A stretch of 42,686 bases of DNA from the IMG/VR virus record IMGVR_UViG_3300031554_000003, positions 1-42,686 of that record; one strand, 5' to 3'. Below, piece by piece: positions 4,250 to 20,668 of this stretch. Within the stretch, counting starts at the first letter, position 1. Every line of letters begins with the position of its first letter. This stretch comes from a virus. A model generated the notes under the pieces. That model was not told where the DNA came from and did not search any database. It saw only the letters and a list, made by a program, of their open reading frames with translations. The position numbers and the translations under genes were made by a program.

Positions 4250-4328
4250 TAGCTTCAACCTGGTTTCTCGCGGAATCGGGCGGGTAATCCTCTCCGGCGT
4301 GAGGGTGCGCCATTCTAAGATGAAGTGA

Positions 4329-4523: not shown

Positions 4524-4529
4524 TATTGT

Positions 4530-4602: not shown

Positions 4603-4606
4603 TTAT

Positions 4607-4690: not shown

Positions 4691-4713
4691 ATATTTTATA
4701 GGAGGGAAACAGA

Positions 4714-4989: not shown

Positions 4990-5000
4990 GGAGTAAATTC

Positions 5001-5444: not shown

Positions 5445-5474
5445 TTTAATAAGTTTATTTTATGGGAGGAAAAC

Positions 5475-5798
5475 ATGGCTTGGAGATGGAAACCAATGAA
5501 AGAAGTAATTGCAGACTTTATGAACGATGAATCTATTGGTCCTGTTGAAAAGAATTCTGACATATGTTTTCAGTGTCAGAAACCAATAACCGATGAAACA
5601 AAACACCTTCATGGAACTTTAGGGATAGGCCCATGTCAAATTGATGAATTGTATAAGGTTGTTAACTTAAGCTGCTCACATACTCGGGAAAGTAGACGTA
5701 TCTATAATGAGAAGTATGTGAATTACAATATTGGTGCTTATCGTAGGGAAGATGGAACCTTGCATATAGATAGGTGCGAGGATCAGTTATTATTTTAA
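5475..5798 (+). CDS. Hypothetical protein with Cys/His motif
   Basis: 107 aa. CFQC near residues 31-34, a later GPC and CSH suggest a small zinc site. No family recognised. It has a good TGGGAGGAAA ribosome site and lies between ssb and the ERF gene, so a role in the recombination module is possible but only inferred. Confidence 0.6.
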   Translation: MAWRWKPMKEVIADFMNDESIGPVEKNSDICFQCQKPITDETKHLHGTLGIGPCQIDELYKVVNLSCSHTRESRRIYNEKYVNYNIGAYRREDGTLHIDRCEDQLLF

Positions 5799-5824
5799 CC
5801 GTGGTTGAATAATTGGAGAAAAGC

Positions 5825-6886
5825 ATGAAAAAAATAAAACAAGCAGAATTAGTCCAGGAAGATACCAGTCACTTGCAAGATTCTACAGAATTGCAAATAA
5901 CCTTTCCCGGGGAATCGACACAGAAGGAAGTGTCTTTATTGCAGGTTATTGCGGCGGCGGTTAAAGATTCCACTTCTGTAGATGTAATAGAAAGGATAAT
6001 TGACCTTAAAAACAAAGAAGAAGACCGGGCAGCAAAAAAAGCATTCTTCCGGGCCTTGTCGAAATTCCAATCTGAACTTCCTGAAATCGAAAAAACAACT
6101 ATTGTTTACAACAAAGACAGAGTAACTGAAAGATATCGTTATGCTAAAATTGGACAAATTGTAAAGCAAATAAAAGAGCCAATGGCAAGTAATGGATTAT
6201 GTTTTACTCTTTCTCATCAATTTATTGAAAAAGGAATTAATATAATTTGTACGATAAGTCATATTGATGGATACTCAGAAGAATCAAAACCTGTTTTCAT
6301 GCCTATGGAAAGTCCGGACTTTATGAAAATGACTGAACAACAAAAAATTGGTACTGCACATACATACGGAGATAGATATGCTTTGTCCGGGGCGCTCGGG
6401 ATAGTAACAATTGATCAAGACATAGATGGTAATACAGACAATTATGAAAATGATCCGGGAACCATGAAACTGTACCGGTTTGCAATTGTGGGGTTGTTAT
6501 CCCTCGATGTGTTTAGCGATGAAGATAAAAAGAATTTCAAATTAGCTGTCCATAAAAAAACACTAATAACGGTTGCAGATTATAAAACCTATTATGAAAT
6601 GACTTTGCAGAAAAAAGAAAAGAGAAGTGCTGAATTGAAAAAAGCACTGGATGAAGCCGTAAATGAACCTCAAAACAAATCGCCTCTCACTGATAAAAAG
6701 CCTATCAATCCCCTTCCCGTTATGGAGAACCAACCTCAAAAGGGAGAGCTTTTTAATCTATACGGCGAGGAAATTATATCAAACAATATTAATCAAATCG
6801 GAGGGATTATAAAAGTTATCCCGAAGGTTAATCTCAATACATCAGATGAAGTTTCAGGTTCAATGCCTGAAATGGATATATTTTAA
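5825..6886 (+). CDS. erf: ERF-family single-strand annealing protein
   Basis: 353 aa from the ATG at 5825, chosen because TTGGAGAA lies 8 bases before it; the earlier TTG at 5813 lacks a site. The ERF core runs over about residues 40-205: KKAFFRALSKFQSELP, YRYAKIGQIVKQIKEPMASN, then GTAHTYGDRYALSGALGI and the Asp-rich end DQDIDGN. These proteins anneal complementary single strands and promote recombination and circularisation, as P22 Erf does. The C-terminal 150 residues are polar and variable. The neighbouring SSB and coiled-coil protein complete the usual module. Confidence 0.9.
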   Translation: MKKIKQAELVQEDTSHLQDSTELQITFPGESTQKEVSLLQVIAAAVKDSTSVDVIERIIDLKNKEEDRAAKKAFFRALSKFQSELPEIEKTTIVYNKDRVTERYRYAKIGQIVKQIKEPMASNGLCFTLSHQFIEKGINIICTISHIDGYSEESKPVFMPMESPDFMKMTEQQKIGTAHTYGDRYALSGALGIVTIDQDIDGNTDNYENDPGTMKLYRFAIVGLLSLDVFSDEDKKNFKLAVHKKTLITVADYKTYYEMTLQKKEKRSAELKKALDEAVNEPQNKSPLTDKKPINPLPVMENQPQKGELFNLYGEEIISNNINQIGGIIKVIPKVNLNTSDEVSGSMPEMDIF

Positions 6887-6903
6887 AACAGAGGAGTAAG
6901 TAC

Positions 6904-7569
6904 ATGAAAAGTATTTTACAGCTTACAAAAGAAGTGAGAATCGCAAACCAGGAAGTTATTGATATAACAATTGATAACGCGGAAAAGTTTTCTATTGCCG
7001 AAACGGTAAGAAAAAAGTTATCCGGACTTAAAAAGGAAATCAAGGAATATTTTGACAAAACCTTAATCCCTGCTAAATTAACAGTCAAGGAAGCCACTGC
7101 AACCATGAAAGATTTTACCGGAGTAGTAGAAGCGTGTGAGCTAAACCTAAAGGAGAAGCAAACAGTATATATCCGGGCAGAGGAAGTGAAAGCAGAGGCT
7201 GAAAGAAAGCGCCTACAGAAGATTGAAGGTGACAAGGTTGAAAAAGAGCGCCTTGCAAAAATCGAAGAAGCCGAGAAGGCTAGAGAAGAACTTGCGGCCT
7301 CCGGCGCTACGGTTGAAGAGGTCAAACAAAAAGAACAGGAAATTGACACCCTTTACCAGACTCCCCTGGAAGTTAAAACTGTTAAAGTAGAAGCCGCTTC
7401 CATAAAGGCCGACATGCGGACATTTAAAAAGAACTATTATGCTGAGGTTGTAGACATAAATAAACTTGACCGTAAATACATGATAGCAAACATGCCTTTA
7501 CTCAATTCAATTGCAAAGGACCAAAAAGAAAATATGAAAATTGATGGAGTTGTGGCAAAATTTAGATAG
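6904..7569 (+). CDS. Coiled-coil protein of the recombination module
   Basis: 221 aa. Residues 15-60 (IDNAEKFSIAETVRKKLSGL) and 75-145 (KAEAERKRLQKIEGDKVEKERLAKIEEAEKAR-type repeats) are long helices. The C terminus (INKLDRKYMIANMPLLNSIA, ending in IDGVVAKFR) has the look of phage proteins commonly encoded next to RecT or ERF annealing proteins. Biochemical function is not known to me. It follows erf by 17 bases with GAGGAG upstream. Confidence 0.65.
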   Translation: MKSILQLTKEVRIANQEVIDITIDNAEKFSIAETVRKKLSGLKKEIKEYFDKTLIPAKLTVKEATATMKDFTGVVEACELNLKEKQTVYIRAEEVKAEAERKRLQKIEGDKVEKERLAKIEEAEKAREELAASGATVEEVKQKEQEIDTLYQTPLEVKTVKVEAASIKADMRTFKKNYYAEVVDINKLDRKYMIANMPLLNSIAKDQKENMKIDGVVAKFR

Positions 7570-7578
7570 GGGGAACCC

Positions 7579-7821
7579 ATGAAAATTGATTTTAATAACG
7601 TAAGAAGAAAGGCTATAGTAGCTTATTGCAGATTGGTGTCTGCTTTAAATAATAGAATATCAGAGGATAAAGTTATTATACACGTTTCAGAACTTGAAGA
7701 CGCGCATCATTTAAGACAAGCGCTTATTGCAATAGCCTGTACTTACGAAAAAGGAGATGATAATTTTAAGTGTATTTTGGGTGATAATGATAACATACCA
7801 ATTTTCAACGAGAAAGAATAA
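7579..7821 (+). CDS. Hypothetical protein
   Basis: 80 aa, mixed alpha/beta, no motif I recognise. It has a GGGGGAA site 3-4 bases before the ATG and stands between the coiled-coil protein and the NinB-like protein in an uninterrupted rightward operon. Confidence 0.6.
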   Translation: MKIDFNNVRRKAIVAYCRLVSALNNRISEDKVIIHVSELEDAHHLRQALIAIACTYEKGDDNFKCILGDNDNIPIFNEKE

Positions 7822-7824
7822 TCC

Positions 7825-8313
7825 ATGATTACAATACATACCAAACACAAAGCCGGCCTTACTTTTGGTATACCCTCTTTGGTCATAGAAGGCTTGGATG
7901 AACTTTTTGCAACTGCTCACAAAAAATATGACGGTAACGTTGTGTTAAAAATAAGCCTTCCTCATAGACCACGAACTACAAAAGAGGATTCACAAAACCA
8001 TAAAATCCGGGGGGACTGTAAAGCTATTTCAGATCAGTTCATAAAACATGACCCGAAATTCACCCCTGGATTTGTCCATTCCATGCTTAAAGCCTTTGCG
8101 GTGAAAGAGAAATATTACCCTTTTATCAAAATAGGAGGGGAAATCATCCCGGTATCCGAAGCTGATTTATCAGTAGAAGAAGCGAGTCGTTTTATCGAAT
8201 ACATAGAGTTGTTTTCCGATGAAAATAACTTATGGTTAGTCCGGAAGGATAAAGAAGGTACTTACAGGTCTATTGGGGGAAGAACCCGGGAAGAAATGGA
8301 GGAATACAAATGA
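7825..8313 (+). CDS. NinB/Orf-like recombination protein
   Basis: 162 aa. The segment RPRTTKEDSQNHKIRGDCKA (about residues 48-67) and the C-terminal stretch PVSEADLSVEEASRFIEYIE (about 112-131) resemble phage proteins annotated as NinB-like, which in lambda (Orf) assist recombination by binding single strands. Context supports it: erf and ssb lie upstream and a probable HNH-type protein lies two genes downstream. The assignment is from pattern memory and is moderate. Confidence 0.55.
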   Translation: MITIHTKHKAGLTFGIPSLVIEGLDELFATAHKKYDGNVVLKISLPHRPRTTKEDSQNHKIRGDCKAISDQFIKHDPKFTPGFVHSMLKAFAVKEKYYPFIKIGGEIIPVSEADLSVEEASRFIEYIELFSDENNLWLVRKDKEGTYRSIGGRTREEMEEYK

Positions 8314-8516
8314 TTGATGAATTATTTCACACACCAAATGAAATGCCAGAATATGATAAACAATTATTATTACAACGAGAGAACGGTTTTTATAGTCAAT
8401 TATATTATTGGGCCATGTCTGTTGAATCCTTAAGACGACATTTTAAAAAAAGTTATACCTACCAAGGGCCAGTCATTCGTTGGTGTTATATCGACGATCT
8501 GGATAAAATTAAATGA
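8310..8516 (+). CDS. Small hypothetical protein (DUF551-like look)
   Basis: 68 aa, rich in aromatic residues, with paired Trp/Tyr segments (YSQLYYWAMSVESL, GPVIRWCYIDDL). Small phage proteins ending this way are frequent in recombination blocks, but I know no function. GGAGG stands 8 bases before the ATG and overlaps the end of the NinB-like gene. Its stop overlaps the next start. Confidence 0.6.
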   Translation: MIDELFHTPNEMPEYDKQLLLQRENGFYSQLYYWAMSVESLRRHFKKSYTYQGPVIRWCYIDDLDKIK

Positions 8517-8791
8517 CAGCAGCACAAAAGAGAGCAGGGAATAAAAAGATAGATAAAATGTTCTTTGATAATGACGAAAGGTACTGCCTTGTTAAGCTCC
8601 CCGGATGCACACTAAGCCCCATAACCAGGGCGCATAGGCATAAAGTAAGCTTTTACAACACTCAACTTGATAAGTTTCATGCGAAAGATCAGGTTTTACC
8701 GGCATGTCTGCCTTGTCATATGAAAATTGAGCAGGATGCAAAATTGACTGAAAAAATATTTATGAAAGTGAGGGGAAAAGAGCGTGTATAA
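8513..8791 (+). CDS. HNH-type zinc-binding protein, possible nuclease
   Basis: 92 aa. C25 and C32 (CLVKLPGC), H41 and H43 (AHRHK), then C65, C68 and H69 (CLPCHMKIE) make the pattern of a Cys4/His HNH-like finger. Phage NinG/Rap and other recombination nucleases in this location share the general look. The domain is short and the catalytic Asn is not clear, so nuclease activity is inferred. ATGA overlap with the gene before. Confidence 0.6.
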   Translation: MTAAQKRAGNKKIDKMFFDNDERYCLVKLPGCTLSPITRAHRHKVSFYNTQLDKFHAKDQVLPACLPCHMKIEQDAKLTEKIFMKVRGKERV

Positions 8792-9002
8792 CTATTATTA
8801 CTTAATTCTATTTTTATTCTACACATTCGGTCATGGCATCCCTTGGAACTTCCCGGAATGGGAGTTTTCAGAGAACTGTAAGCGGGCCTATTATAATCGA
8901 CCCATATTAAAGCCCACTTCTTTTGTCACGGTCCCGGCTATTGTGAGAAAGGAAAAAATGACCCCTGCTGTACAGTTTAAGGGGTGGAAGGGGGAGAGAT
9001 GA
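8784..9002 (+). CDS. Hypothetical protein, GTG start
   Basis: 72 aa if GTG 8784 is used, overlapping the previous stop (GTGTATAA) and preceded by AGGGG. The N terminus is hydrophobic and aromatic (YNYYYLILFLFYTFGHGIPW) and could be a membrane or signal segment; the rest is basic. No family recognised. The next gene starts inside its stop (ATGA). Confidence 0.5.
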   Translation: MYNYYYLILFLFYTFGHGIPWNFPEWEFSENCKRAYYNRPILKPTSFVTVPAIVRKEKMTPAVQFKGWKGER

Positions 9003-9202
9003 AATTAAAATTATATGTGTGGCCGGAGTTTGAGCCAGATCGGGAAAATGGAATCGCATTTGCAATAGCTCATAGTATAACAGAAGCGAGAGAAATTATA
9101 GTAGAAAAATATGGTCGTTTTGATCGGTGGGGTACGGTTAACATATATCCTCTATCCCAAAAAATAGGGTTTGTTGTTCAGGGGGGGTGGGTGGTAAGAT
9201 GA
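8999..9202 (+). CDS. Small conserved-looking phage protein
   Basis: 67 aa from ATG 8999, chosen because GGGGGAGAG lies directly upstream and it gives an ATGA overlap at both ends. The pattern KLYVWPEFEPDRENGIAFAIA followed by a Tyr-rich middle and a GFVVQGGWVVR end is a compact alpha/beta protein seen in many phages. Its function is unknown. Confidence 0.6.
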   Translation: MKLKLYVWPEFEPDRENGIAFAIAHSITEAREIIVEKYGRFDRWGTVNIYPLSQKIGFVVQGGWVVR

Positions 9203-9399
9203 ACAAATACACCTTTAAAACCCAGGATGGCAAAAAGTCTATCACTGTGGAAGCAAAAAACTACCCACTTGCCCTTGAGGAATTGACGATTGAAAAGTTC
9301 CGTCAAAAAATATTTGACAAAATGGAATTTGACGATTGGGTTCAGATGGGTTATGAAAAAAAAGAAAGAAATAGAGCAGAAAGAATTAGGGTTATTTGA
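9199..9399 (+). CDS. Small hypothetical protein
   Basis: 66 aa from ATG 9199 (ATGA overlap with the gene before, GGTGGTAAG upstream). A beta-hairpin-like N terminus (YTFKTQDGKKSITVEAKNYP) precedes a helical, highly charged C terminus. No family recognised. Confidence 0.55.
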   Translation: MNKYTFKTQDGKKSITVEAKNYPLALEELTIEKFRQKIFDKMEFDDWVQMGYEKKERNRAERIRVI

Positions 9400-9671
9400 T
9401 GGAGAATAAAAAGATAACGAAAGAAGAGCAGGAAAAAATATTGTCTACATATTTTAATCAATGCAGGCAAATAACTCGACAAATGCCAAGTAATAAGGAT
9501 TTTTATTACATCAAAGTAAATTGTGGCATTTGTGGTACTCCTCGACCTTTAACAACATCCTATAGATGTTATCAGTGTGGTTTATGGATTTGTCCAAAGT
9601 GTGCAGGAAAGCACTTTGGGATAGATAAGGCAAAGCTGCCTAAATATATAAAAACAGGAGGTACATTATGA
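9399..9671 (+). CDS. Zinc-ribbon-like hypothetical protein
   Basis: 90 aa from ATG 9399 (TGATG overlap with the gene before; a TTG three bases earlier is the alternative). CGICG, CYQC and CPKC with a following H (residues about 43-75) give six cysteines in CxxC pairs, a treble-clef or RING-like zinc site. Function unknown. Confidence 0.55.
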   Translation: MENKKITKEEQEKILSTYFNQCRQITRQMPSNKDFYYIKVNCGICGTPRPLTTSYRCYQCGLWICPKCAGKHFGIDKAKLPKYIKTGGTL

Positions 9672-9700
9672 TGTAATACAAGTATTTTTTCTACAATTCA

Positions 9701-9726
9701 AGCCCCCTTACTCGCATCAAGGGGCT
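9701..9726 (+). promoter_or_regulatory. Intercistronic hairpin
   Basis: AGCCCC (9701-9706) pairs with GGGGCT (9721-9726), extended by TT/AA past one bulged C. No T run follows, so it is not a good terminator. AAAAAGGAGG of the next gene begins 9 bases after it, so it may position or protect the ribosome site. Confidence 0.45.
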
Positions 9727-9747
9727 AATTTAAAAAGGAGGTATTAA

Positions 9748-10094
9748 GTGAAATACGAATACGCACAGGTTAATATTAAAAATATTAATAGTGGTGCTAT
9801 TACAGAACTTTTTAATGCAGAATTGCCAAAGGTTCTGGAAAATATCGCTGATGATAACACTAAGCCTGATGCTTCCAGAGAAATCCGTCTTATAATTAAG
9901 ATAAAGCCCACCGGGAAATACAGCAGCCCTCTTCTCAATTCCTTTTTCGGCTCAGAGAAAGTTTGGGAATCCCCAAGTGTGCACTTTTTGAAGCAGATGG
10001 CGCTCGATGGAAGGATGAAGCGGTTTACGGGATAGCGAAGTACTTGCGGACAGAGATGTACGACAATCAGTTAAAGTATCAGATTATAAAGTAA
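9748..10094 (+). CDS. Replication-terminator-like phage protein with apparent -1 frameshift
   Basis: GTG start at 9748 with a perfect AAAAAGGAGG site. The first ~50 codons (INSGAITELFNAELPKVLEN, then IADDNTKPDASREIRLIIKI) look like proteins annotated as phage replication terminator proteins. The opening frame ends at 10035 with an unnatural tail. The -1 frame is open to TAA at 10092-10094 and reads well (RESLGIPKCALFEADGARW, then KDEAVYGIAKYLRTEMYDN). The switch must lie between about 9893 and 10033; a T5 run at 9943-9947 is one candidate. Mutation, assembly indel or programmed shift are all possible. Confidence 0.5.
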
Positions 10095-10100
10095 TTAAGT

Positions 10101-10174
10101 GGGGTTGTGGTGTAAATGGCAGCATAAGCATTATCGGCGTCCGTAAGGTATGGGTTCGAGTCCTGTCAACCCCA
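10101..10174 (+). tRNA. tRNA-like gene without a pairing anticodon stem
   Basis: The acceptor GGGGTTG/CAACCCC is perfect. U8, A14, G18, G19 and A21 fall at their canonical places. The D stem pairs GTGT with GCAT, the T arm is ATGGG-TTCGAGT-CCTGT, and the length is 74 nt. But positions 27-31 (AGCAT) and 39-43 (GTCCG) do not pair and position 33 is A, not T. It is either a decayed tRNA or a non-decoding mimic like the units at 3931-4523. Confidence 0.5.
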
Positions 10175-10232
10175 CTTTTATTTTACAATGAACCATTTCT
10201 GTGACGCCACGAAGATGGTAAAGGAGAAAGAT

Positions 10233-10394
10233 ATGGATAATAAAGAAATACTTGAAGAATTGCAAAAGGCTTTACTCTCCTGTGAAGAATATGATACTCA
10301 GGAAAATCGAAAAAAAAGTCAGTTTTTTGATGCTTATAGGTACTCTATTATTGAAGATGCGATTAAGCTTATTTTAGCTAAGGCACAACCATGA
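10233..10394 (+). CDS. Small hypothetical protein
   Basis: 53 aa from ATG 10233, chosen for AAGGAG 6 bases upstream. The earlier ATG at 10188 lies only 14 bases past the tRNA-like gene and has no site. It is an acidic helical protein (EILEELQKALLSCEEYDTQE) without recognisable motif. The stop overlaps the methylase start (ATGA). Confidence 0.5.
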   Translation: MDNKEILEELQKALLSCEEYDTQENRKKSQFFDAYRYSIIEDAIKLILAKAQP

Positions 10395-11026
10395 CAAACA
10401 GCCTTTTCCCATCCAGTGAAACAAAGCCCCTCATCCGGTCCTATTCGTTTGACCAGGTGTCTATTATCCGGTCAATCATCGAGCTTTATATACCGGCCGG
10501 TAGAATTGACCTGGACCCGTGCTATAACCGGGGAGGGTTCTATAAGTCCGGAGAGATAAAGTTGCCATTCTACAAGCTTGATATTAACCCTATTTACGGG
10601 GCGGTTGGAGATAGCAGAAACTTACCCTTTCAGAATGAAACAATCGGGAGCACAATCTTTGATCCTCCCTTCCTTACTTATCCGGATAAAAAGAAATCAT
10701 GCAAAATGACTTTATTCGGATCATTCCGGACTTATAAAGATTTACATGAAATGTATTATTCTTCCTTCCAGGAGTTTTATCGAATAATGTTACCGGCCAG
10801 TATCTTGATTGTGAAATGCCAGGATAGCACTATTGGCTCTAATTTCGTGTCGGTTGTTACGAAAAGCGTAATAAACCCTTGTGAGGAATTGGGGTTTAGG
10901 CAAATTGATATGTTTATTCTGCTCAGTAAGCAGCGGATTGAAAATAGAACTAAAACTCAAAGAATGTCAAGGAAGTATCACAGTTATTTTGTTGTATTTA
11001 GAAAAGGAAAGAGAAAATGTCATTAA
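10391..11026 (+). CDS. DNA methylase-like protein (DPPF motif)
   Basis: 211 aa. LDPCYNRGGF (about 41-50) occupies the place of a DP.xxGSG-like motif, FYKLDINP (60-67) resembles the acidic AdoMet-contacting strand, and DPPF at 91-94 is motif IV of amino methylases (N4-cytosine/N6-adenine class). The fold order fits a small Rossmann methylase lacking a separate recognition domain. Phages use such enzymes to evade restriction. Target base and site cannot be read from the sequence. The gene overlaps the next one by 10 bases. Confidence 0.65.
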   Translation: MTNSLFPSSETKPLIRSYSFDQVSIIRSIIELYIPAGRIDLDPCYNRGGFYKSGEIKLPFYKLDINPIYGAVGDSRNLPFQNETIGSTIFDPPFLTYPDKKKSCKMTLFGSFRTYKDLHEMYYSSFQEFYRIMLPASILIVKCQDSTIGSNFVSVVTKSVINPCEELGFRQIDMFILLSKQRIENRTKTQRMSRKYHSYFVVFRKGKRKCH

Positions 11027-11688
11027 ATAAACAAAAGGGTAATATGTACGGGTTTGTGACTCATACGTTCAACACAATCAAGGGCGAATGTCCTCACGGC
11101 TGTACATACTGCTATATGAAACGATTCGGAAAACAGAAGCCCCCACACTTGGATGAAAGCGAGTTTAAGACAGACCTGGGAACCGGGAATTATATCTTTG
11201 TGGGAAGTAGTATTGATATGTTTGCAAAAAGTATTGATAATTCTTGGGTTGATAAGACTTTAGAATATTGTAAAATATTTGATAATCAATATTTATTTCA
11301 TACAAAAAATCCAAAAAGATTATTTAAAAAATATATCTTTGGGGAAACTCCTGTAAAATCAAATTTTATAACGACAATTGAAACAAATAGACATTATGCA
11401 CAAATAATGAAAGATTCACCCACCCCACAAATAAGGGCTAACAATGCCAACTGGGGTAATCGAAATGATAAAATGATAACAATAGAACCGGTTATGGACT
11501 TTGATATAGAACTTTTTGCTAAAATGATCCAGAGAATAAACCCTTTTCAGATTAATATAGGTGCTGATAGTGGAGGAAACAACCTTCCTGAACCATCAAA
11601 AGATAAGCTGCAAATTTTTATATCAGTGTTGCAAGGGTTGGGGTATAATGTTCATCTTAAACCAAATATTGGGAGGTTGTTTAAGTGA
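11017..11688 (+). CDS. Radical SAM protein, DUF5131 (phage Gp37/Gp68) family
   Basis: 223 aa. CPHGCTYC (C25, C29, C32) is a radical SAM CX3CX2C iron-sulphur motif preceded by FNTIKGE. Later landmarks IFVGSSIDMFA, LFHTKNPKRLF and the ITIEPVMDFDIE strand agree with the DUF5131 family found in phages and in bacteria. Substrate is unknown. It is coupled to the methylase gene by overlap, which suggests a shared role in DNA or RNA modification. Confidence 0.75.
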   Translation: MSLNKQKGNMYGFVTHTFNTIKGECPHGCTYCYMKRFGKQKPPHLDESEFKTDLGTGNYIFVGSSIDMFAKSIDNSWVDKTLEYCKIFDNQYLFHTKNPKRLFKKYIFGETPVKSNFITTIETNRHYAQIMKDSPTPQIRANNANWGNRNDKMITIEPVMDFDIELFAKMIQRINPFQINIGADSGGNNLPEPSKDKLQIFISVLQGLGYNVHLKPNIGRLFK

Positions 11689-11708
11689 TCTTAAGATTGG
11701 AGAAATAA

Positions 11709-12869
11709 ATGAGTGAATTAAAGTGGATTAAAATATGTATTGACATTTTCGATGATGAAAAAATTAAAATTATAGAAAACTTACCGGAAGGTGATACTCT
11801 CTTAATAATCTGGTTTAAATTGCTTGTTTTGGCTGGTAAAAAAAATGATTCAGGGCTTGTTTATATTACAAGAGACATCCCATATTTAGATGATACTTTA
11901 GCAACTGTAATAACAAGAAGTAACGTGACTGTCACATTGGCGTTACAAACCTTTGAAAAAATGGGAATGATTGAAAAAAATAACGGATTAATAGCGATAG
12001 TTAATTGGGAAAAACACCAGAGTGTTGATAAAATTGATGAGATAAAAAAACAAAATAGGATTAGACAACAAAAATACAGATATGGCCAAAAATTAGAAAT
12101 TGGAGCTATTTGCAGTTATTGTGGCAATAAGGCAACCGGGTTTGATCATATAATAGCAATAACAAAAAACGGAAAAGACACCAAAGAGAACAAAATACCC
12201 TGTTGTATTGATTGTAATAGACAAAAAAACAATCATGACCTTGTATACTTTTTAAATGAGCTGATATCAAATCGTAATGACGAAGTAATAGGACTCAATA
12301 AAAGGTTGTGTGAAATTATATTTTTTGATTCAAATACAAAAAAATATTCTTATAAAAATAACGTGACAGTCACGTCTAAAAATAACGTGACAGTCACGTC
12401 ACGTCACGCAATAGATAAGAATAGAATAGATAAGAATAGAATAGATAAGAATAGAATAGATAAGAATAGTAACAAAAACCCCGGTTTAAAAAAACCGGTT
12501 CCACCTGTAGATAATGATTTAAAAGAACTTAAAAAAAATGTAAGTGAATTTTTTAGAGAAAAATCGCCACAACATTTCCAATGCGATAAAGATTATGCTT
12601 TGCAAGGGAAATACGTAAAAGACTTATGTTTAAGGGCACAGGAAATAAACCCAAATTTTGACGATCAAAAAGCTTGGCTGAAATCTATTTTACACACGTT
12701 CTATTTAATTTGTTCCGGGCAGACAGGAAAGAAAACTTTAGATTTTTTAAAAGGGACTCCGTATGTCCCCTCGCAAATGTTATCCAAGGGAATATGGACA
12801 TATGTTCTTCAAGGAATGGAAACAATACACAAAACAATAAATCTTGATGATGTGGAGGATTTACCATGA
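11709..12869 (+). CDS. Replisome organizer / replication initiator with internal HNH domain
   Basis: 386 aa. Residues 1-115 match the winged-helix phage replisome organizer N-terminal domain (start ELKWIKICIDIFDDEKIKII, then NGLIAIVNWEKHQS). Residues 133-182 are an HNH-type finger: CSYCGNKATGFDHIIA with D146/H147, then CCIDCNRQKNNHD. Residues 225-255 are low complexity (repeats of IDKNR) encoded by DNA repeats. The C-terminal ~110 residues are helical. Initiators of this kind bind iterons in their own gene and recruit the helicase machinery. The HNH insertion is unusual. No helicase gene is seen, so host DnaB would be recruited. Confidence 0.8.
   Translation: MSELKWIKICIDIFDDEKIKIIENLPEGDTLLIIWFKLLVLAGKKNDSGLVYITRDIPYLDDTLATVITRSNVTVTLALQTFEKMGMIEKNNGLIAIVNWEKHQSVDKIDEIKKQNRIRQQKYRYGQKLEIGAICSYCGNKATGFDHIIAITKNGKDTKENKIPCCIDCNRQKNNHDLVYFLNELISNRNDEVIGLNKRLCEIIFFDSNTKKYSYKNNVTVTSKNNVTVTSRHAIDKNRIDKNRIDKNRIDKNSNKNPGLKKPVPPVDNDLKELKKNVSEFFREKSPQHFQCDKDYALQGKYVKDLCLRAQEINPNFDDQKAWLKSILHTFYLICSGQTGKKTLDFLKGTPYVPSQMLSKGIWTYVLQGMETIHKTINLDDVEDLP
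12354..12469 (+). other. Probable replication origin: iterons inside the initiator gene
   Basis: Two copies of the 15-bp palindrome ACGTGACAGTCACGT at 12361-12375 and 12385-12399 lie 24 bp apart within a tandem 24-bp repeat, followed by extra ACGTCACG half-sites. Four exact tandem copies of the AT-rich 15-mer AATAGATAAGAATAG then occupy 12410-12469. A related site ACGTGACTGTCAC lies at 11923-11935. Palindromic iterons next to AT-rich repeats inside the initiator gene is the lambda-O-type origin layout. Confidence 0.65.
12481..12498 (+). repeat. Perfect hairpin after the origin repeats
   Basis: CCGGTTT (12481-12487), AAAA, AAACCGG (12492-12498): a perfect 7-bp inverted repeat 11 bp after the last origin 15-mer, still inside the initiator gene. 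It may be part of the origin or simply codon-level chance. Confidence 0.5.
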
Positions 12870-13246
12870 TAAAATTAACAGTAGAGCAGTTTTTAATGGC
12901 AATAGTAAAATATTACGGGGAATATGAAAATCCGCACGTAAAAAAAGAAGTAGCAAAATATGTAAGCTCAAATTATACACCCTCGGAATTATATCGGCTT
13001 TGGAAAAAAACTCAACTTGGATATTCAACGAAATGGAGGGTAACTCCTGATATTGCCATTTTTGAAGAAATAAATAAAAAACACGGGATAATAAGTTTTA
13101 TAAACGGAACAAGAGTTATCTCTGAATGTGATACCAAGAAAACCTTAGAACCTCCGGAAGAAGTGGAAGACTTTTCCGCTGATATAGATCTTTTAATGCA
13201 AGGATTTAAAGCAAAAGTAATTAGAGATAAAAAGGCAAAAGAGTAA
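12866..13246 (+). CDS. Hypothetical protein coupled to the initiator
   Basis: 126 aa. It starts inside the initiator stop (ATGA). A helical N-terminal half with YYGEYENPHVKKEVAKYV and SELYRLWKKTQLGYSTKW is followed by PDIAIFEEINKKHG and an acidic tail. Coupling to the initiator suggests a replication accessory protein, for example a loader or regulator, but no ATPase motif is present and the function is open. Confidence 0.6.
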   Translation: MIKLTVEQFLMAIVKYYGEYENPHVKKEVAKYVSSNYTPSELYRLWKKTQLGYSTKWRVTPDIAIFEEINKKHGIISFINGTRVISECDTKKTLEPPEEVEDFSADIDLLMQGFKAKVIRDKKAKE

Positions 13247-13250
13247 AACG

Positions 13251-13403
13251 ATGGCAATATTTACAGTAACGTGGGGTGGTTATTATTCCGTTGAGGCTGA
13301 GTCATGGGAAGAAGCAAAGGAAAAATTTATTTCATACGTAGAAGAAGAAGAGATTGATTCTTACGGGAGAGACCGGAAAGATTTAATTGAAGTAAAAGAA
13401 TAG
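13251..13403 (+). CDS. Small hypothetical protein
   Basis: 50 aa (MAIFTVTWGGYYSVEAESWE, acidic helix, KDLIEVKE end). A beta hairpin plus acidic helix, in a 150-base gap between two operon genes, with consistent codon use. There is only a weak ribosome site, so coupling to the preceding gene is likely. Function unknown. Confidence 0.55.
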   Translation: MAIFTVTWGGYYSVEAESWEEAKEKFISYVEEEEIDSYGRDRKDLIEVKE

Positions 13404-13418
13404 GAAAGGAGTAAATCT

Positions 13419-13634
13419 ATGAAATGTAAAGGGTGTAAACAACAGAAGAAGGCAGATAACTGCCAGAGGTGTTATTTAGATGCTATGAAGCTTTGTGAAG
13501 TATGGGTAAAAGAGCTTACAGAAAATAAGAAGATTTTAATTGAAGTGTATGAAATAATTAGCATACATCATCTTTCCTCTCTGGATAAAGCTAAAAAATA
13601 CATCAGGAGGAAAATAATAAATGGGAGAGATTAA
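13419..13634 (+). CDS. Small Cys-rich hypothetical protein
   Basis: 71 aa. CKGC near the start and CQRC near residue 16-19 make a likely zinc knuckle; a long basic helix follows. GGAAAGGAG precedes the ATG. It overlaps the GIY-YIG gene by 14 bases, so the two are probably co-translated. Confidence 0.6.
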   Translation: MKCKGCKQQKKADNCQRCYLDAMKLCEVWVKELTENKKILIEVYEIISIHHLSSLDKAKKYIRRKIINGRD

Positions 13635-14040
13635 GGTTGTAACGAATAATATCCTGCCAATTGCAGGATTAAACAAATATCTTCATAAGGATTTAGCAGA
13701 TGCTATTTATGGGGCTCTCTTTTATTTGAGGCTTGGTTTTTTCCAGCACTTCGAGAATTATAAAAAAGTTAAGCACGAGCTTGGTCCCGGATGCTATCTA
13801 TATCTTGATAATCGCCTGGGGATTGCTTATGTAGGGATGTCCGGAGAAATGAAAGGGAGATTATACGACCATAAGGATTACAAGAAAAAAGATTATTCAA
13901 AAAGTGAGATAATTGTAATCCCTACCAGGTCTAAAGCAAAAGCAAAGCAAATAGAAACAATAATTGGCGCGCTCACCCAGGACACCAACGATAATGTTAT
14001 TACGACATTTCATGGGAAACATGGAATAATAAAAAGATAA
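13621..14040 (+). CDS. GIY-YIG-type nuclease-like protein
   Basis: 139 aa. After a 50-residue N-terminal region comes PGCYLYLDNRLGIAYVGMSG (about 56-75), which fits the paired GIY and YIG strands, then R80 (MKGRLYDH) and a helix with E112 (KQIETIIGAL), the usual catalytic Arg and Glu. The domain covers about 56-125. Phage GIY-YIG proteins include homing and repair nucleases; this one is free-standing, so its role is undecided. Confidence 0.65.
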   Translation: MGEIKVVTNNILPIAGLNKYLHKDLADAIYGALFYLRLGFFQHFENYKKVKHELGPGCYLYLDNRLGIAYVGMSGEMKGRLYDHKDYKKKDYSKSEIIVIPTRSKAKAKQIETIIGALTQDTNDNVITTFHGKHGIIKR

Positions 14041-14050
14041 GGAGATTTTT

Positions 14051-14554
14051 ATGAAGACAAGTTGGCGAAAACTTTATGAGGAAAAACTCATAGAAGTTCC
14101 TTCTAAAGGGGACTTTGAAAAAATTATAGACGTTCCGGGAAGTGAATGTTTAAGCGTTCAAAAAGTTGAAAAAATGAAGAAAGACAGAGAGATCCTTCTT
14201 CTTATGGCTGAAAAACAGAAATATCTTTCTGATATTCTGGTATTGGACACGGGCCAGGGAACTTTCTTTTGTTCCCGGTTGAGAAGTAAAACCGGAAAAA
14301 TAAAAGATGAAAGTATTGTTTACTGTGACAATACTCATCCCCCTATTAAAGACTACGGGAAAAATCCCTGGCGGCCATTATCTATCGAAGAAGAAGAGGA
14401 TAACACAATCATTACGGAAGTGTGTGATATGGGAAAAGGTATTGTCATGAGAAGAATTCGAATTACAAAAACTCAAATGTTCCAAACACTTTGTTATGCT
14501 CTTAGCGTTCACCCGATGCATTACGCAGATGGGACTTATGGAGTGATAGGATGA
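14051..14554 (+). CDS. Hypothetical protein
   Basis: 167 aa, no motif I recognise. The N-terminal third is helical and charged (WRKLYEEKLIEVP, KMKKDREILLLMAEK); the C-terminal part is mixed with TKTQMFQTLCYALSVHPMHY. AAGGAG lies 8 bases before the ATG. The stop overlaps the start of the next gene (ATGA). Confidence 0.6.
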   Translation: MKTSWRKLYEEKLIEVPSKGDFEKIIDVPGSECLSVQKVEKMKKDREILLLMAEKQKYLSDILVLDTGQGTFFCSRLRSKTGKIKDESIVYCDNTHPPIKDYGKNPWRPLSIEEEEDNTIITEVCDMGKGIVMRRIRITKTQMFQTLCYALSVHPMHYADGTYGVIG

Positions 14555-14814
14555 ATACACCAATAACAAGTTATATTAGAGACATGATTTCTCATGAAGA
14601 AGAGATGCTAGATGATTTACGCTCAAAAGTAATTGAGCTAAATGATCATTTGAATCCTATTAGGATCTATCCTGATGAATGTGAAAAAGGTCCAGTGCCA
14701 ATAGAGGAGAAAGAAGCACGATCTCCTATTGAAGAACAGTTAGCTTCTAATAGCTGTATTATAAAAGACATAATAAATAAAATTCAGGATATGACGTGTA
14801 ATTTAAGATTATAA
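14551..14814 (+). CDS. Hypothetical helical protein, last gene of the rightward operon
   Basis: 87 aa, acidic, two helical stretches (ISHEEEMLDDLRSKVIELND and EEQLASNSCIIKDIINKIQD) flanking a Pro/Glu-rich middle. No family recognised. It is followed at once by the bidirectional terminator, so it closes the replication operon. Confidence 0.55.
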   Translation: MNTPITSYIRDMISHEEEMLDDLRSKVIELNDHLNPIRIYPDECEKGPVPIEEKEARSPIEEQLASNSCIIKDIINKIQDMTCNLRL

Positions 14815-14821
14815 CACAAAC

Positions 14822-14864
14822 AAAGCAGACTGTATTTATTATGTTAACGAATACAGTCTGCTTT
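14822..14864. terminator. Bidirectional intrinsic terminator
   Basis: AAAGCAGACTGTATT (14822-14836) pairs perfectly with AATACAGTCTGCTTT (14850-14864) around 13 bases; T-rich tails exist on both strands. It lies between convergent operons (rightward stop at 14814, leftward stop at 14879) and should serve both. Confidence 0.9.
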
Positions 14865-14878
14865 TTATTATGTTATAG

Positions 14879-15361
14879 CTATCTTGATTTCAACCTGCAT
14901 AAAATCAATAATATCCAGCCTAATATCAGAATCGGTAAAGTAAAAAGTACCCAGGCCCAGGCGTACATAGGGGATGCCGCAAAGTCGGTTGAAAAGAAGG
15001 CATAAATAAATATCCCGTTACAATATCCCCAGGGAAACCCAAGGTGAGCGTAATATTTATGGATCCCGCCTTTGTATGGATTGGAGATTGCAAAAAATAA
15101 TATAAACAAGCACAGGAAGAAGAAGAACTCAGATAGGAATCCGGATATCATTACATGAGGAGAATTTTCTGTTATCTGGCACGTGTTCCATCCAGTTATA
15201 ATTCCTTTCTGCCCGTCTATCCGGGCAGCGTTAACATGCCCCTCCTCATGGAGGGGGGCAAAGATTATCGTACAGGCAATTACAAAGCCTACGATAAAAA
15301 GTATGCAAAATAGGAAGTTTTGCCGGGAATCACCCCTGTCATCATGGTTTTTTGAGATCAT
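14879..15361 (-). CDS. Integral membrane protein with HEEGH metallopeptidase motif
   Basis: 160 aa. About four membrane helices (residues 15-35, 69-92, 105-127, 132-157). HEEGH at 38-42 immediately follows the first helix (APLHEEGHVNAA), which is where site-2-protease (M50)-like enzymes place their zinc motif. A later NPY (near 95) could include a third ligand partner but is not certain. Last gene of the leftward operon, coupled by ATGA to the gene before, with AGGAG upstream. A phage membrane protease could cleave an anti-sigma factor or envelope protein; this is inference. Confidence 0.55.
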   Translation of the reverse strand: MISKNHDDRGDSRQNFLFCILFIVGFVIACTIIFAPLHEEGHVNAARIDGQKGIITGWNTCQITENSPHVMISGFLSEFFFFLCLFILFFAISNPYKGGIHKYYAHLGFPWGYCNGIFIYAFFSTDFAASPMYAWAWVLFTLPILILGWILLILCRLKSR

Positions 15362-15768
15362 AATAGCTCCTTTATAGATGATTCTATTTTAGATTCATCC
15401 ATTTTTTGGACACAATCAATCCAGTCTGACAAGAAAAAAGCCTGCGCATAGTAAAGATGATTTATCTTAATTTTTAGTGTAAGCCATTCGGTATCATTTG
15501 TTACTGCTTTAAGTTGAAGTAAGATTTCACCTCGCCCGTAAAATCTTTTATTTGGAAAATGAATTGCAGAAAGTAATAATCTCAGCTCATCTTCCGCAAA
15601 AATTTTTTTAAGTTCGTTGATAGTCGCGTATCTGATCCAAAACCAGTGATCTATCATTCTATGACCGGCCTTATTGAGATTGCCGTATATTTTTTCTAAT
15701 TTTTCAAGCTGGTTCCCTCTGATCTTGATTGATAATGTTTTTTCTTTAGTCAATTTTTTCTCACTCAT
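15358..15768 (-). CDS. Hypothetical protein with RHH-like N terminus
   Basis: 136 aa. The N terminus KTLSIKIRGNQLEKLEKIYG resembles a ribbon-helix-helix strand and first helix, but the rest (FWIRYATINELKKIFAEDEL and later) is longer than usual regulators. ATGA overlaps at both ends couple it to the Ala-rich protein gene and to the membrane protease gene. Function unknown. Confidence 0.5.
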   Translation of the reverse strand: MSEKKLTKEKTLSIKIRGNQLEKLEKIYGNLNKAGHRMIDHWFWIRYATINELKKIFAEDELRLLLSAIHFPNKRFYGRGEILLQLKAVTNDTEWLTLKIKINHLYYAQAFFLSDWIDCVQKMDESKIESSIKELL

Positions 15769-17675: not shown

Positions 17676-17683
17676 GATTCTTT

Positions 17684-17744
17684 CCTTTTGCCCGGACTTC
17701 GGACCCGGCGTGCGGTTTACATCCCCGAAGGGATGCCGTCACCT
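17684..17744 (-). ncRNA. Twin structured intercistronic element, copy 1
   Basis: 61 nt, leftward strand. GGTGACGG is followed by hairpin CATCCC-TTCG-GGGATG, then TAAACC, a variable stretch, GGTCCGAAGTCCGGGC and the ribosome site AAAAGG. Copy 2 at 19975-20035 has the same length and the same flanks, but its hairpin is CAGGGC-GCAA-GCCCTG. Stem bases differ yet all pairs are kept, and both loops are stable tetraloops (UUCG, GNRA). That is direct evidence for a selected RNA structure. Confidence 0.75.
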
Positions 17745-18536
17745 TAATATCAAGCTATCTTCCACCACTGCACTTACTTCTGTGATTCTTCCGTCTTCAA
17801 GTTCTACAGTTGCCGTGTAGGTAGTATATGTAATTAATCCGTCAACACTTTCCGTATAGGATTCTTTTTCTTTAATCTCGGTTATCTTATTGATAATAAT
17901 AATTTTCCCTTGCATTTTTACGCCGTTTAGTGTATAATTCTTTTCATGAAGTTTCCCACGTCGGGATAATGCTTGTTTGAAGTCTCTCCCCCATGCGATG
18001 GCACTACTCCACTCGGGAGAAAGGCGATATTTGTATACCGTTTCTGTTTTCTCTCCGGATGCGTACCAGTCTTTTCTTTCTTGAATTGACATTCCGGCAA
18101 GTCTTCCGTCTGGATGATATAATTGAGTTTTAATTTCTTCTGGATCTATCTTGAATCCGTTTTTATTGGAAAATAATTTATCTTTGCGGATAACTTTATT
18201 TTGCAGTTCAAGGGATAATTGCTCAAAGGTCACATAATCCCGTACACGTTCCGGCATAGGCTTTTTGTTCGCCGTTCTCTCTGTGGGGTTATCGCTGTTT
18301 TGGAAGTCGTTAATTTCCGGGTATCTTTTCAAGCATTCCCGGTATCCGATATCGTATGAGAAAAGAAACCCTTTTCCCCCTCGTTTGATTTTTTCGACTT
18401 TTTCAGCATGGAAGAAGTGGGCCGGATCAACTTCAATCCCTTCTACTGATTGACCTATCACTATAAGCCCGGTTACTTGTTCCCTGGTAAAGCCATGATC
18501 GACTCCGTGACTTAATTTAGCTTTTATTGGTTCCAT
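17739..18536 (-). CDS. Hypothetical protein
   Basis: 265 aa from ATG 18536 (AGGAGT 7 bases upstream); a longer in-frame start at 18599 overlaps the gene before and lacks a site. Residues 15-30 (HGFTREQVTGLIVIGQSVEG) and the middle (FSYDIGYRECLKRYPEINDF, LYHPDGRLAGMSIQERKDWY) look globular; the C-terminal 80 residues are beta-rich (YTTYTATVELEDGRITEVSA). I know no family. The stop lies inside the twin element. Confidence 0.6.
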   Translation of the reverse strand: MEPIKAKLSHGVDHGFTREQVTGLIVIGQSVEGIEVDPAHFFHAEKVEKIKRGGKGFLFSYDIGYRECLKRYPEINDFQNSDNPTERTANKKPMPERVRDYVTFEQLSLELQNKVIRKDKLFSNKNGFKIDPEEIKTQLYHPDGRLAGMSIQERKDWYASGEKTETVYKYRLSPEWSSAIAWGRDFKQALSRRGKLHEKNYTLNGVKMQGKIIIINKITEIKEKESYTESVDGLITYTTYTATVELEDGRITEVSAVVEDSLILR

Positions 18537-18582
18537 ATAATTACTCCTATACTCTAAAATTAAACAGACAAGATAGTCTGTC

Positions 18583-19029
18583 TTAAAGTTTTTCTTCAAT
18601 TTTTTTAAGGGCTTTTTCTGCTATAGCTTTTTTCCCTTCTAACCAATCAGCTATTTTTTCAAGCAAACCTTCAGAAATTGCTTTAGAGAATCTTAAAGCG
18701 TCATGTCTTGTTATATCTCCCGTACAATAAGCTAATGACCTATTATAAGGATGATCTTCCCAAACGTCTTGACTCGGGACAATAAGTGTCCACCTGGTAG
18801 TATCTTCTGTGTCTATTTTAATCATGCTGTAATTTTCAGGGAGTTTAATTTCTCGAAACTCTCCTGGCATAGGACTTGTTACATCTTCGCAATAAGATTT
18901 AAGCTGTTCTACAATCTTTATTGCCACTTCATTACAAGCTTCTTTCAATTTTTCAGTAACCCTGGAAGTCTCACTTCCTACTCTTTCTAATCTCTTCAAA
19001 CTGTTAATAATACTATTGTTTTGTGACAT
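18583..19029 (-). CDS. Hypothetical protein with helical ends
   Basis: 148 aa. Helical N terminus (LKRLERVGSETSRVTEKLKE), a beta-rich centre with MIKIDTEDTTRWTLIVPSQD, and a Lys-rich C-terminal helix. No family recognised. AAGGAGG lies 8 bases before the ATG, and the mini-tRNA-like element and a 14-codon leader ORF lie directly upstream. Confidence 0.6.
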   Translation of the reverse strand: MSQNNSIINSLKRLERVGSETSRVTEKLKEACNEVAIKIVEQLKSYCEDVTSPMPGEFREIKLPENYSMIKIDTEDTTRWTLIVPSQDVWEDHPYNRSLAYCTGDITRHDALRFSKAISEGLLEKIADWLEGKKAIAEKALKKIEEKL

Positions 19030-19065
19030 TATGCCACCTCCTTAAATTTATTGCCTTCCGGCTAA

Positions 19066-19104
19066 AGCCAGCCGGGGAATCGAACCCCGGTAACCGCTCT
19101 GGCT
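19066..19104 (-). ncRNA. Mini-tRNA-like element (acceptor stem plus T arm)
   Basis: 39 nt on the leftward strand. AGCCAG pairs with CTGGCT; an 8-base link AGCGGTTA leads to a perfect T arm CCGGGG-TTCGATT-CCCCGG. There is no D arm or anticodon arm. An alternative hairpin CCGGCT/AGCCGG, using bases just downstream, would break the T arm. It sits in the leader of the 148-aa gene, and the stop codon of a 14-codon ORF lies in its first stem. Confidence 0.65.
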
Positions 19105-19147
19105 ATCTGTTTCCATTTTTAAATCTAATTTCTATAAGTTCACTCAT
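19103..19147 (-). CDS. Possible leader peptide (14 aa)
   Basis: ATG 19147 overlaps the stop of the RadC-like gene (ATGA) and reads MSELIEIRFKNGNR to a TAG lying in the 5' arm of the mini-tRNA-like element. GGGGGAATT of the RadC end could serve as ribosome site. A ribosome stopping here would disturb the T-arm-like structure. It may also be incidental. Confidence 0.35.
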   Translation of the reverse strand: MSELIEIRFKNGNR

Positions 19148-19605
19148 AATTCCCCCTGTTCCTGGAAACTGTAATAGCCGTTCCCGGAAATTATCACATG
19201 ATCAAGTACGGATATCCCCATTACTTTCCCGGCTGCTTTCATCATTTTAGTTACTTCTACATCTTCGTAGCTCGGAGTGTTATTCCCGCTTGGATGATTG
19301 TGAGCAATTATAATCGACTTCGCGGAGTCGATAATTGCAGCCCGGAATACTTCTCTTGGGTGAACTAAGCTTTTATCAAGTAGCCCTTTACATATTTCAT
19401 GCACGTCTATTATCTTAAGAGACGTGTCCAGGGTAACCACAAGAAAATACTCTTGCTTTTCATTCGCATAGCCTTCTATGTAAGGTATGATTTTGTTTGG
19501 CTTATCAATTCTCACTCCCTTAGTAGGGATCACTGCTCGGAATGCCGCACGGATATCTTGTACAGAATAAGTCTTTATTATTTCATTTACTCTTTCGTAG
19601 TTCAT
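19144..19605 (-). CDS. radC: RadC-like JAB/MPN protein
   Basis: 153 aa. The JAMM zinc signature is complete: H102-x-H104-P-S106-G followed by PSYED with D115, and the conserved GISVLDHVIISGNGYYSF end. An E in the GYANEKQEYF strand region supplies the usual upstream Glu. This is the RadC catalytic-like domain without the helix-hairpin-helix part of chromosomal RadC. Phage and plasmid RadC-like proteins often sit with antirestriction genes; the biochemical role is unsettled. Coupled by ATGA to the 47-aa gene upstream. Confidence 0.85.
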   Translation of the reverse strand: MNYERVNEIIKTYSVQDIRAAFRAVIPTKGVRIDKPNKIIPYIEGYANEKQEYFLVVTLDTSLKIIDVHEICKGLLDKSLVHPREVFRAAIIDSAKSIIIAHNHPSGNNTPSYEDVEVTKMMKAAGKVMGISVLDHVIISGNGYYSFQEQGEL

Positions 19606-19745
19606 TCCGTTAACTCCTGGATTAATATTTCTGAATTTATTACATGATCTTCAAGTAAGTTTGTTATCGCTTTTAAACGTGCAATTAGATTTTTTTCTGT
19701 TTTTATATTTTGCATTAGTTTGTTTGTTTTGTTTGTTTTACTCAT
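19602..19745 (-). CDS. Small hypothetical protein
   Basis: 47 aa (MSKTNKTNKLMQNIKTEKNL, then ARLKAITNLLEDHVINS), helical and basic at the start. It fills the gap between two genes with ATGA overlaps on both sides, and GGGGGATAAG precedes the ATG. Unknown function. Confidence 0.6.
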   Translation of the reverse strand: MSKTNKTNKLMQNIKTEKNLIARLKAITNLLEDHVINSEILIQELTE

Positions 19746-19966
19746 CTTATCCCCCTTCGTGCGTTGTATGCGCTTACTACTATAATCTGAAATTGCTCAC
19801 TTGATATAATATAATTGTGAGCTGCTATTATTGCGCATTGCTTCAGGTTATAGTAGTTTACAGTGTGTTCTTTCCTGGTTGCTGACTTAGTGCATATTGC
19901 ATATGCCAGCAGTAGTGATGCAATGTAAAACTCTTTAGGTTTTAGTAGGAAATCTCGTTTGTTCAT
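19742..19966 (-). CDS. Small hypothetical protein
   Basis: 74 aa, helical, with a hydrophobic stretch FYIASLLLAYAICTKS and a later CAIIAAHNYIIS. It could be weakly membrane-associated. AAAAGGAGT, the tail of twin element copy 2, is the ribosome site. Function unknown. Confidence 0.55.
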   Translation of the reverse strand: MNKRDFLLKPKEFYIASLLLAYAICTKSATRKEHTVNYYNLKQCAIIAAHNYIISSEQFQIIVVSAYNARRGIR

Positions 19967-19974
19967 GTTTTACT

Positions 19975-20035
19975 CCTTTTGCCCGGACTTCGGACCGGGT
20001 CCGTGGTTTACAGGGCTTGCGCCCTGCCGTCACCT
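19975..20035 (-). ncRNA. Twin structured intercistronic element, copy 2
   Basis: 61 nt on the leftward strand with GGTGACGG, hairpin CAGGGC-GCAA-GCCCTG, TAAACC, then CCCGG-TCCGAAGT-CCGGG (5 bp) and AAAAGG. It matches copy 1 (17684-17744) in length and flanks, while the first hairpin is completely re-paired with a GNRA loop in place of UUCG. It begins right at the stop of the 101-aa gene and ends in the ribosome site of the 74-aa gene. Confidence 0.75.
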
Positions 20036-20339
20036 ATGTTAATGGTACTCTTACGTATAGAGGGGCTTTAACATGGTCGTAAAGTAGTTTAGGCACTATA
20101 AGCCCGCCTTTTGCACCTTCAAACTCTACCCAATAGAAAGTCTTAGGTGTCTTTAGTTTTTTGTATTCAAGGCATACTTTCTTGTTGCTATACTCTTGAA
20201 TACTTACACCTTTCAACTTTGGAGTGTTGGATTCTAAGTATTTTCCCCATGTAGTTGAGATGTTCTTGATTTTTACTGTCTTTGTAAGTATTTTGTTTAG
20301 TTTTGCGTTGTTCATAGTTGCTATGGTTGCTTTGCTCAT
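20034..20339 (-). CDS. Hypothetical protein
   Basis: 101 aa from ATG 20339 (MSKATIATMNNAKLNKILTK), chosen because it overlaps the upstream stop (ATGA) with GGGGT before it. Basic N-terminal half, then KTFYWVEFEGAKGGLIVPKL, a beta-rich end. No family recognised. Confidence 0.6.
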   Translation of the reverse strand: MSKATIATMNNAKLNKILTKTVKIKNISTTWGKYLESNTPKLKGVSIQEYSNKKVCLEYKKLKTPKTFYWVEFEGAKGGLIVPKLLYDHVKAPLYVRVPLT

Positions 20340-20668
20340 TTGGTCACCCCTGCATATATCCCTATTAGACATAGAGCATCGTAAACCTTGGTTGCGCTCC
20401 ACACTTCCGGATGTGCCATTATCTCTTGTCTAATTACGCTTGGGTTAGCTATATATGCAGATAGTGAGATATCACGGTCATACATTTCCTCACAATAACT
20501 ATCCCACGGATCAATTATCGTAACCACACACTCACTCGGTTGTGGTTGTTCATTCAATAATCTAAGACATATTTTCCCGGTGTCGAGTACCTGTATTTCT
20601 TGTTGTCCAGGTATGCCTTCCAGTAGGGCTATGTGCAGCTTCCTGGCGTCGATTTTTTTTATATCCAT
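20336..20668 (-). CDS. Hypothetical protein, first gene of the leftward operon
   Basis: 110 aa (KKIDARKLHIALLEGIPGQQ, CVVTIIDPWDSYCEEMYDRD, HPEVWSATKVYDALCLIGIY). No family recognised. AGGAGT lies 8 bases before the ATG. As the promoter-proximal gene of a leftward block of small proteins it would be made first and in quantity, which fits host-takeover or counter-defence proteins, an inference only. Confidence 0.6.
   Translation of the reverse strand: MDIKKIDARKLHIALLEGIPGQQEIQVLDTGKICLRLLNEQPQPSECVVTIIDPWDSYCEEMYDRDISLSAYIANPSVIRQEIMAHPEVWSATKVYDALCLIGIYAGVTK

Follow-up and report, generated by a model that had tools for sequence, protein, structure and literature searches.

Two similar elements lie among the leftward genes of the window (the whole stretch of DNA that was analysed, 42,686 nt), and the question raised by this locus is what kind of RNA they specify and what that RNA would do between genes. 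The window is a tailed-phage record that includes a terminase, a portal, a major head protein, an Erf-like annealing protein and a DnaD-like loader, and no nucleotide relatives of the window region were found among INPHARED phages. Judged from their sequences, both elements are very probably type-P5 twister self-cleaving ribozymes that cut the RNA of the leftward operon between genes.

In a covariance-model scan of the whole window against Rfam 15, copy 2 was the single ribozyme match at the curated cut-off, aligning with the Twister-P5 model (RF02684) over its full length at 51.8 bits, compared with a gathering threshold of 37.6 bits. At a looser threshold, copy 1 was also matched by the entire model, its score of 37.3 bits being 0.3 short of gathering (E = 1.5e-5 in a 2.6-kb search). 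The preliminary description had stated that no named RNA family was known to fit; the match to RF02684 contradicts this and rules out a new RNA family. The type-P1 twister had no match in the window and the hammerhead core none at the gathering level. The two 61-nt elements described earlier are indeed present on the minus strand, with the quoted blocks and hairpins, but the ribozyme proper comprises only 52 nt in each copy, and the last 8 nt of the 61, GCAAAAGG, belong to the start of the leader and to a part of the Shine-Dalgarno (SD) sequence. Among the blocks common to both copies, GGTGACGG is the P2/L1/T1 part of the catalytic core, TAAACC comprises the cleavage site and P2, and GGTCCGAAGTCCGG corresponds to P4 and L4. 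Exactly two occurrences of the 16-mer GGTCCGAAGTCCGGGC were counted in the window, compared with an average of 0.09 in shuffled sequences with up to three mismatches allowed. Folding energies (z of about -1.7 and -2.8 for the two elements) are too weak to serve as proof of an element, which is decided instead by the covariance-model score and by covariation.

Both copies, aligned to positions 1-58 of the model, show the P5 permutation, in which P1 is closed by a loop and the ends of the RNA lie outside P2 and P4. The order of elements is a P2 strand, L1, the closed P1 hairpin, U^AA, the other P2 strand, L2, and P4 with L4. The hallmarks of twister ribozymes are a U-A cleavage dinucleotide, the pseudoknot T1, for which L1 and L4 form three Watson-Crick pairs, and T2, in which two nucleotides of L2 pair with two of L4 (PMC5408937). 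The U^AA site, the G-A of L1, and the AAG of L4 are present in both copies, and T1 is CGG/CCG in each of them. T2 is AC/GU in copy 2 and GC/GU, with one G.U wobble, in copy 1; across the wider set of copies described below, it is found as GC/GC, AC/GU, and CC/GG. The window copies resemble RF02684 in the full-length match, the order of helices, the core residues, and the presence of both T1 and T2, but they differ from it in the first pair of T1, usually G.C and here a compensated C.G that is also found in other phages, as well as in P2, which is one pair longer in the consensus. The compensatory change between the hairpins CATCCC-UUCG-GGGATG and CAGGGC-GCAA-GCCCTG, noticed earlier, is real and corresponds to P1, and T1 also carries a compensated change.

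P4 is fully paired in copy 2, and in copy 1 its third pair is a G.G mismatch, which sets that copy apart from RF02684. Owing to this mismatch, copy 1 may be slower to cleave, or may be decaying. A refinement compatible with operon cutting would make copy 1 a decaying, inactive remnant and leave copy 2 to work alone. The score of 37.3 bits, the G.G at the third pair of P4, and the G.U in T2 are consistent with such a fate, as is the presence of an intact ribozyme of the copy-2 type at the same site in a relative of the window phage (G001); on the other hand, P1 (with six pairs kept), P2, T1, and all core residues of copy 1 are intact, and a complete loss of activity seems to us rather unlikely.

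Table 1. Ribozymes, predicted cleavage sites, and adjacent genes in the leftward region of the window.
Feature	Position	Strand	Basis
Gene upstream of copy 2, 122 aa, TAG overlapping the ribozyme by 1 nt	20034..20402	-	ORF
Twister-P5 ribozyme, copy 2, intact	19983..20034	-	RF02684, 51.8 bits
P1 hairpin of copy 2 (CAGGGC-GCAA-GCCCTG), would stay on the 3' end of the upstream mRNA	20011..20026	-	alignment, folding
Predicted cleavage site of copy 2, U20010^A20009, directly after the P1 hairpin	20009..20010	-	model alignment and twister U-A site (PMC5408937)
AGGAG, Shine-Dalgarno sequence of the 74-aa gene (ATG at 19966)	19973..19977	-	sequence
Gene directly downstream of copy 2, 74 aa	19742..19966	-	ORF
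RadC-like gene between the two ribozymes	19144..19605	-	PF04002, E 7.7e-41; phrog_10276
Gene upstream of copy 1, TGA inside the ribozyme	17739..18599	-	ORF
Twister-P5 ribozyme, copy 1, one G.G mismatch in P4	17692..17743	-	RF02684, 37.3 bits
P1 hairpin of copy 1 (CATCCC-UUCG-GGGATG), would stay on the 3' end of the upstream mRNA	17720..17735	-	alignment, folding
Predicted cleavage site of copy 1, U17719^A17718	17718..17719	-	model alignment and twister U-A site (PMC5408937)
AAGGA, Shine-Dalgarno sequence of the 64-aa gene (ATG at 17675)	17683..17687	-	sequence
Gene directly downstream of copy 1, 64 aa	17481..17675	-	ORF

The positions of the two ribozymes relative to the neighboring genes are given in Table 1. 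The TAG upstream of copy 2 (20036-20034) ends on the first base of the ribozyme, the TGA upstream of copy 1 (17741-17739) lies within GGTGACGG, and both start codons follow 16 nt beyond P4. The earlier placement of the elements exactly between a stop codon and a ribosome site stands as far as their intercistronic location is concerned, but the stop codons touch or overlap the elements rather than precede them. The 122-aa gene upstream of copy 2 has no family match. The gap that separates the RadC-like gene from the next ORF contains a sequence resembling the 3' half of a tRNA, GGTTCGATTCCCCGGCTGGCT (19060-19110, minus strand), which gives a weak match to a tmRNA end and is possibly an attachment site or a tRNA remnant.

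Because each copy has a stop codon on one side and an SD on the other, cleavage would be expected to divide the leftward polycistronic mRNA, and the earlier suggestion of a processing element is strengthened. During transcription of the leftward operon, the ribozyme would fold once the P4 hairpin has left the polymerase and, as we infer, would rapidly cut itself at the U-A step that immediately follows the P1 hairpin. This would leave the P1 hairpin and a 2',3'-cyclic phosphate at the end of the upstream mRNA, and the downstream mRNA would begin with a 5'-OH and a 43-nt leader containing the P4 hairpin, followed by its own SD and start codon. Both cuts together would free a segment of ~2.3 kb (20009 to 17719) from the genes on either side, and the benefit would probably lie in the separate decay and translation of the pieces. 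Terminal hairpins and a 5'-OH would be expected to protect such pieces, given what is generally known about the decay of bacterial mRNA.

A precedent for operon cutting is provided by the hammerhead clusters of prophages, which were proposed by Perreault et al. (2011) to cut long phage transcripts into operon- or gene-length mRNAs, and for which cleavage of ~2-kb polycistronic constructs in vitro, as well as the activity of one arrangement in E. coli, were reported (PMC3088659). Several points weigh against this explanation: copy 1 falls 0.3 bits under the curated cut-off and carries the P4 mismatch; folding could be blocked by a ribosome that terminates on the overlapping stop codon, since P2 and L1 would then be covered; the stop-SD placement could also reflect insertions being tolerated there alone; and the leftward genes are joined into one operon by prediction rather than by a transcript map. 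An alternative in which the elements stay uncut and act as structured leaders on translation or mRNA stability would assign all the work to the hairpins near the stop codon and SD. The P1 and P4 hairpins do adjoin these two signals, but conservation centres on the catalytic residues of the twister and the two pseudoknots, which a plain hairpin does not need, and we consider this alternative highly improbable.

Operon cutting by twister ribozymes can also be considered in the light of other phages. A strict three-block pattern gave no matches, and a degenerate core pattern yielded at least 120 stretches in viral contigs; the copies analysed numbered 177 in 65 records, including the two from the window, with 65 copies serving as a hold-out set. 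When whole records selected from these matches were re-scored with RF02684, 39 of 41 in the first set passed the cut-off, the richest record having 10 copies, as did 22 of 26 in a second, separately drawn set. A scan of genome_contigs returned mostly chance patterns; the one that was re-scored with the Rfam model, in a Smithella MAG (L329), reached 36.5 bits, below the cut-off. Myrna, a Mycobacterium phage, and a fecal phage clone gave weak matches of ~20 bits and were left out of the counts.

The preliminary description had looked to many covarying copies in intercistronic gaps as the sign of a genuine element, and all four helices do covary among the 177 copies. In an alignment of 30 sequences including both window copies, 93.8% of cells were paired, compared with 65.2% in shuffles; changes on both sides were seen in 14 of 15 pairs, and the covariation score was 0.651, compared with 0.161 for shuffles and at most 0.144 for slid structures. 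All three pairs of T1 were compensated in this alignment. T1 is a pseudoknot that a covariance model cannot hold, and therefore most of these copies were collected without regard to it. The first pair of T1 in 170 parsed copies was GC in 132, CG in 23, AU in 7, and UA in 6, although the CG count is inflated, since one scan was aimed at GACGG and the parser favours the register with more T1 pairs.

The placement seen in the window is shared by many phages. With ORFs called by a simple script rather than a gene finder, an ATG with an SD was found within 60 nt downstream on the same strand for 102 of 112 copies in the first set, compared with 1 of 112 in antisense and 332 of 2240 (15%) for random positions on the same strand. 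A stop codon of an ORF was present at the 5' edge of the ribozyme (-12 to +15) in 79 of 112 copies, compared with 184 of 2240 (8%) at random, the median offset from that edge being -1 nt. The hold-out set gave similar values, with an SD and ATG in 56 of 65 (random 213 of 1300, 16%) and a 5'-edge stop in 47 of 65 (random 99 of 1300, 8%). Independent annotation is in agreement: in Tunturi_4 (PP885687.1), a cultured phage of Tunturiibacter, four copies scoring 48 to 62 bits (63092-63149, 62165-62226, 59934-59991, and 58349-58409 of the record) lie without exception in GenBank-annotated gaps, and two of the four begin at the base right after the annotated stop codon; the word "ribozyme" is absent from the main text of the paper describing this phage (PMC11924767).

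Comparison with G001 (L125), a close relative of the window phage that is mostly 86 to 96% identical where aligned and has three copies, reveals that homology changes at both ribozymes. At the site of copy 2, homology starts at the ribozyme, the upstream gene being unrelated, with the ribozyme and the downstream gene nearly identical. At the site of copy 1, homology covers the end of the upstream gene and is lacking in the downstream genes, and the ribozyme of G001 is of the copy-2 type. The ribozymes thus sit at borders of gene exchange as well, possibly as its cause or its consequence. These switches would suit the view that the main role of the ribozymes is to link modules in recombination, as short conserved stretches at the borders across which phages swap genes, or that they are selfish cassettes travelling with genes, with cleavage being incidental. 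However, the catalytic core is kept as the sequence drifts, with all helices including T1 covarying, which is not favoured by a linker that needs identity; viable joints would survive at gene borders in any case, and such a role is compatible with cleavage rather than exclusive of it. We therefore judge cleavage as a mere by-product to be quite improbable.

The preferred reading, operon cutting, may also extend to phages with many copies. In 27 of 27 records with at least two copies (139 copies), all copies are on a single strand. The highest count among the records analysed is that of a 46-kb record from the second set (G066, L377), with 14 type-P5 twisters in 13.6 kb (2171-15767) on one strand, and the maps of G031, G060, G008, G034, and G066 show genes and ribozymes alternating over long stretches. 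Mixed arrays, with hammerhead or pistol ribozymes in the twister-free gaps, were considered, but no other RNA family was found at the gathering level in 115 kb of array loci. In 13 array loci the hammerhead had no gathering-level match, and Twister-P5 was the sole ribozyme family matched. Among the array genes, one in G034 encodes a helicase whose distant homologues occur in many phages, and no named relatives were found for two others (in G008 and G066).

Several array phages carry, in the leader that separates P4 from the SD, a stretch complementary to the predicted new 5' end. We can speculate, with the balance about even, that in many uncultured phages, and in at least one cultured phage, a type-P5 twister in gap after gap yields mRNAs of nearly single genes and that, in a subset, a strand-exchange helix forms after cleavage and leaves the SD open. 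The freed 5' end (AAxxGCG, a P2 strand) would pair with its complement directly before the SD, and this cap helix would drive product release and close the 5'-OH end with a hairpin, the SD being left open. The cap helix should form fully only after cleavage, because the ribozyme needs the same P2 strand. A complement of at least six pairs is present in 27 of 111 copies of the first set, from which the idea arose, compared with 2.9 (maximum 8) in dinucleotide shuffles and 7.7 (maximum 13) when leaders were permuted among all copies. The real tests are the hold-out set, with 13 of 65 (shuffles 1.5, maximum 5), and Tunturi_4, in which three of four copies have a 6-nt complement that is used in the predicted folds. 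Where at least six pairs are possible, the complement ends exactly at the start of the SD about half of the time. Leader swaps within the same genome lower the match in G031 (no equally good result in 2000 permutations) and G060 (p = 0.0025), two records that look related and are not fully independent, as well as in G066 (0.002), G016 (0.005), and G008 (0.02); the leader segment therefore follows the P2 of its own ribozyme. In predicted folds of the 3' product (examples from G031, G060, and G008), the 5' end is closed in the cap helix and the SD is open. The cap helix is not a general rule, being absent in G034, G033, G039, and G054, and it is also absent in the window's own phage, with GCAAAAGGAG or GCAAAAGGAA as leader. 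Candidate segments are found in L155 (G031), L371 (G060), L377 (G066), L132 (G008), L139 (G016), and L394 (Tunturi_4). The P4-SD leader of G012 (L136) has other hairpin-like segments that do not form a cap helix.

The hammerhead clusters are a close parallel to these arrays, in that several self-cleaving ribozymes flank single genes or blocks of genes in phage DNA with the same proposed role. The twister arrays differ in fold, in being homotypic, with up to 14 copies abutting the stop codon, and, in several phages, in the leader complementary to the new 5' end. The theta (HDV-like) ribozymes known from gut phages are likewise self-cleaving and found in tailed phages, but they have another fold and accompany tRNA genes, and the processing of tRNA 3' trailers is their proposed role (PMC10879173). 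That twister and hammerhead ribozymes are associated with phage genes, and ribozymes with one another, is known and was called unexplained, the biological reason for the enrichment of self-cleaving ribozymes near phage genes being stated as unknown (PMC10085705). In the open-access literature, outside of which the original twister papers lie, no description was found of the tight stop-ribozyme-SD placement, the long homotypic P5 arrays, or the cap helix, and an earlier mention of phage twister arrays is possible.

Both window elements belong to a known ribozyme family, of which they are ordinary members in an informative location; the arrays and the cap helix are the interesting part, and the wider pattern deserves follow-up. 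If the arrays work, phage transcriptomes should contain 5' ends at the predicted U^A sites, carrying a 5'-OH. The precise, repeated placement makes the enrichment of phage ribozymes directly testable, and Tunturi_4, cultured and with four copies, can be used now. A leader complementary to the new 5' end would represent a natural design for ribozyme-processed operons. Apparent type-P1 twisters, recognized by a GCAGAG strand after P4, are also present in seven viral contigs (L016, L017, L020, L030, L051, L054, and L095).
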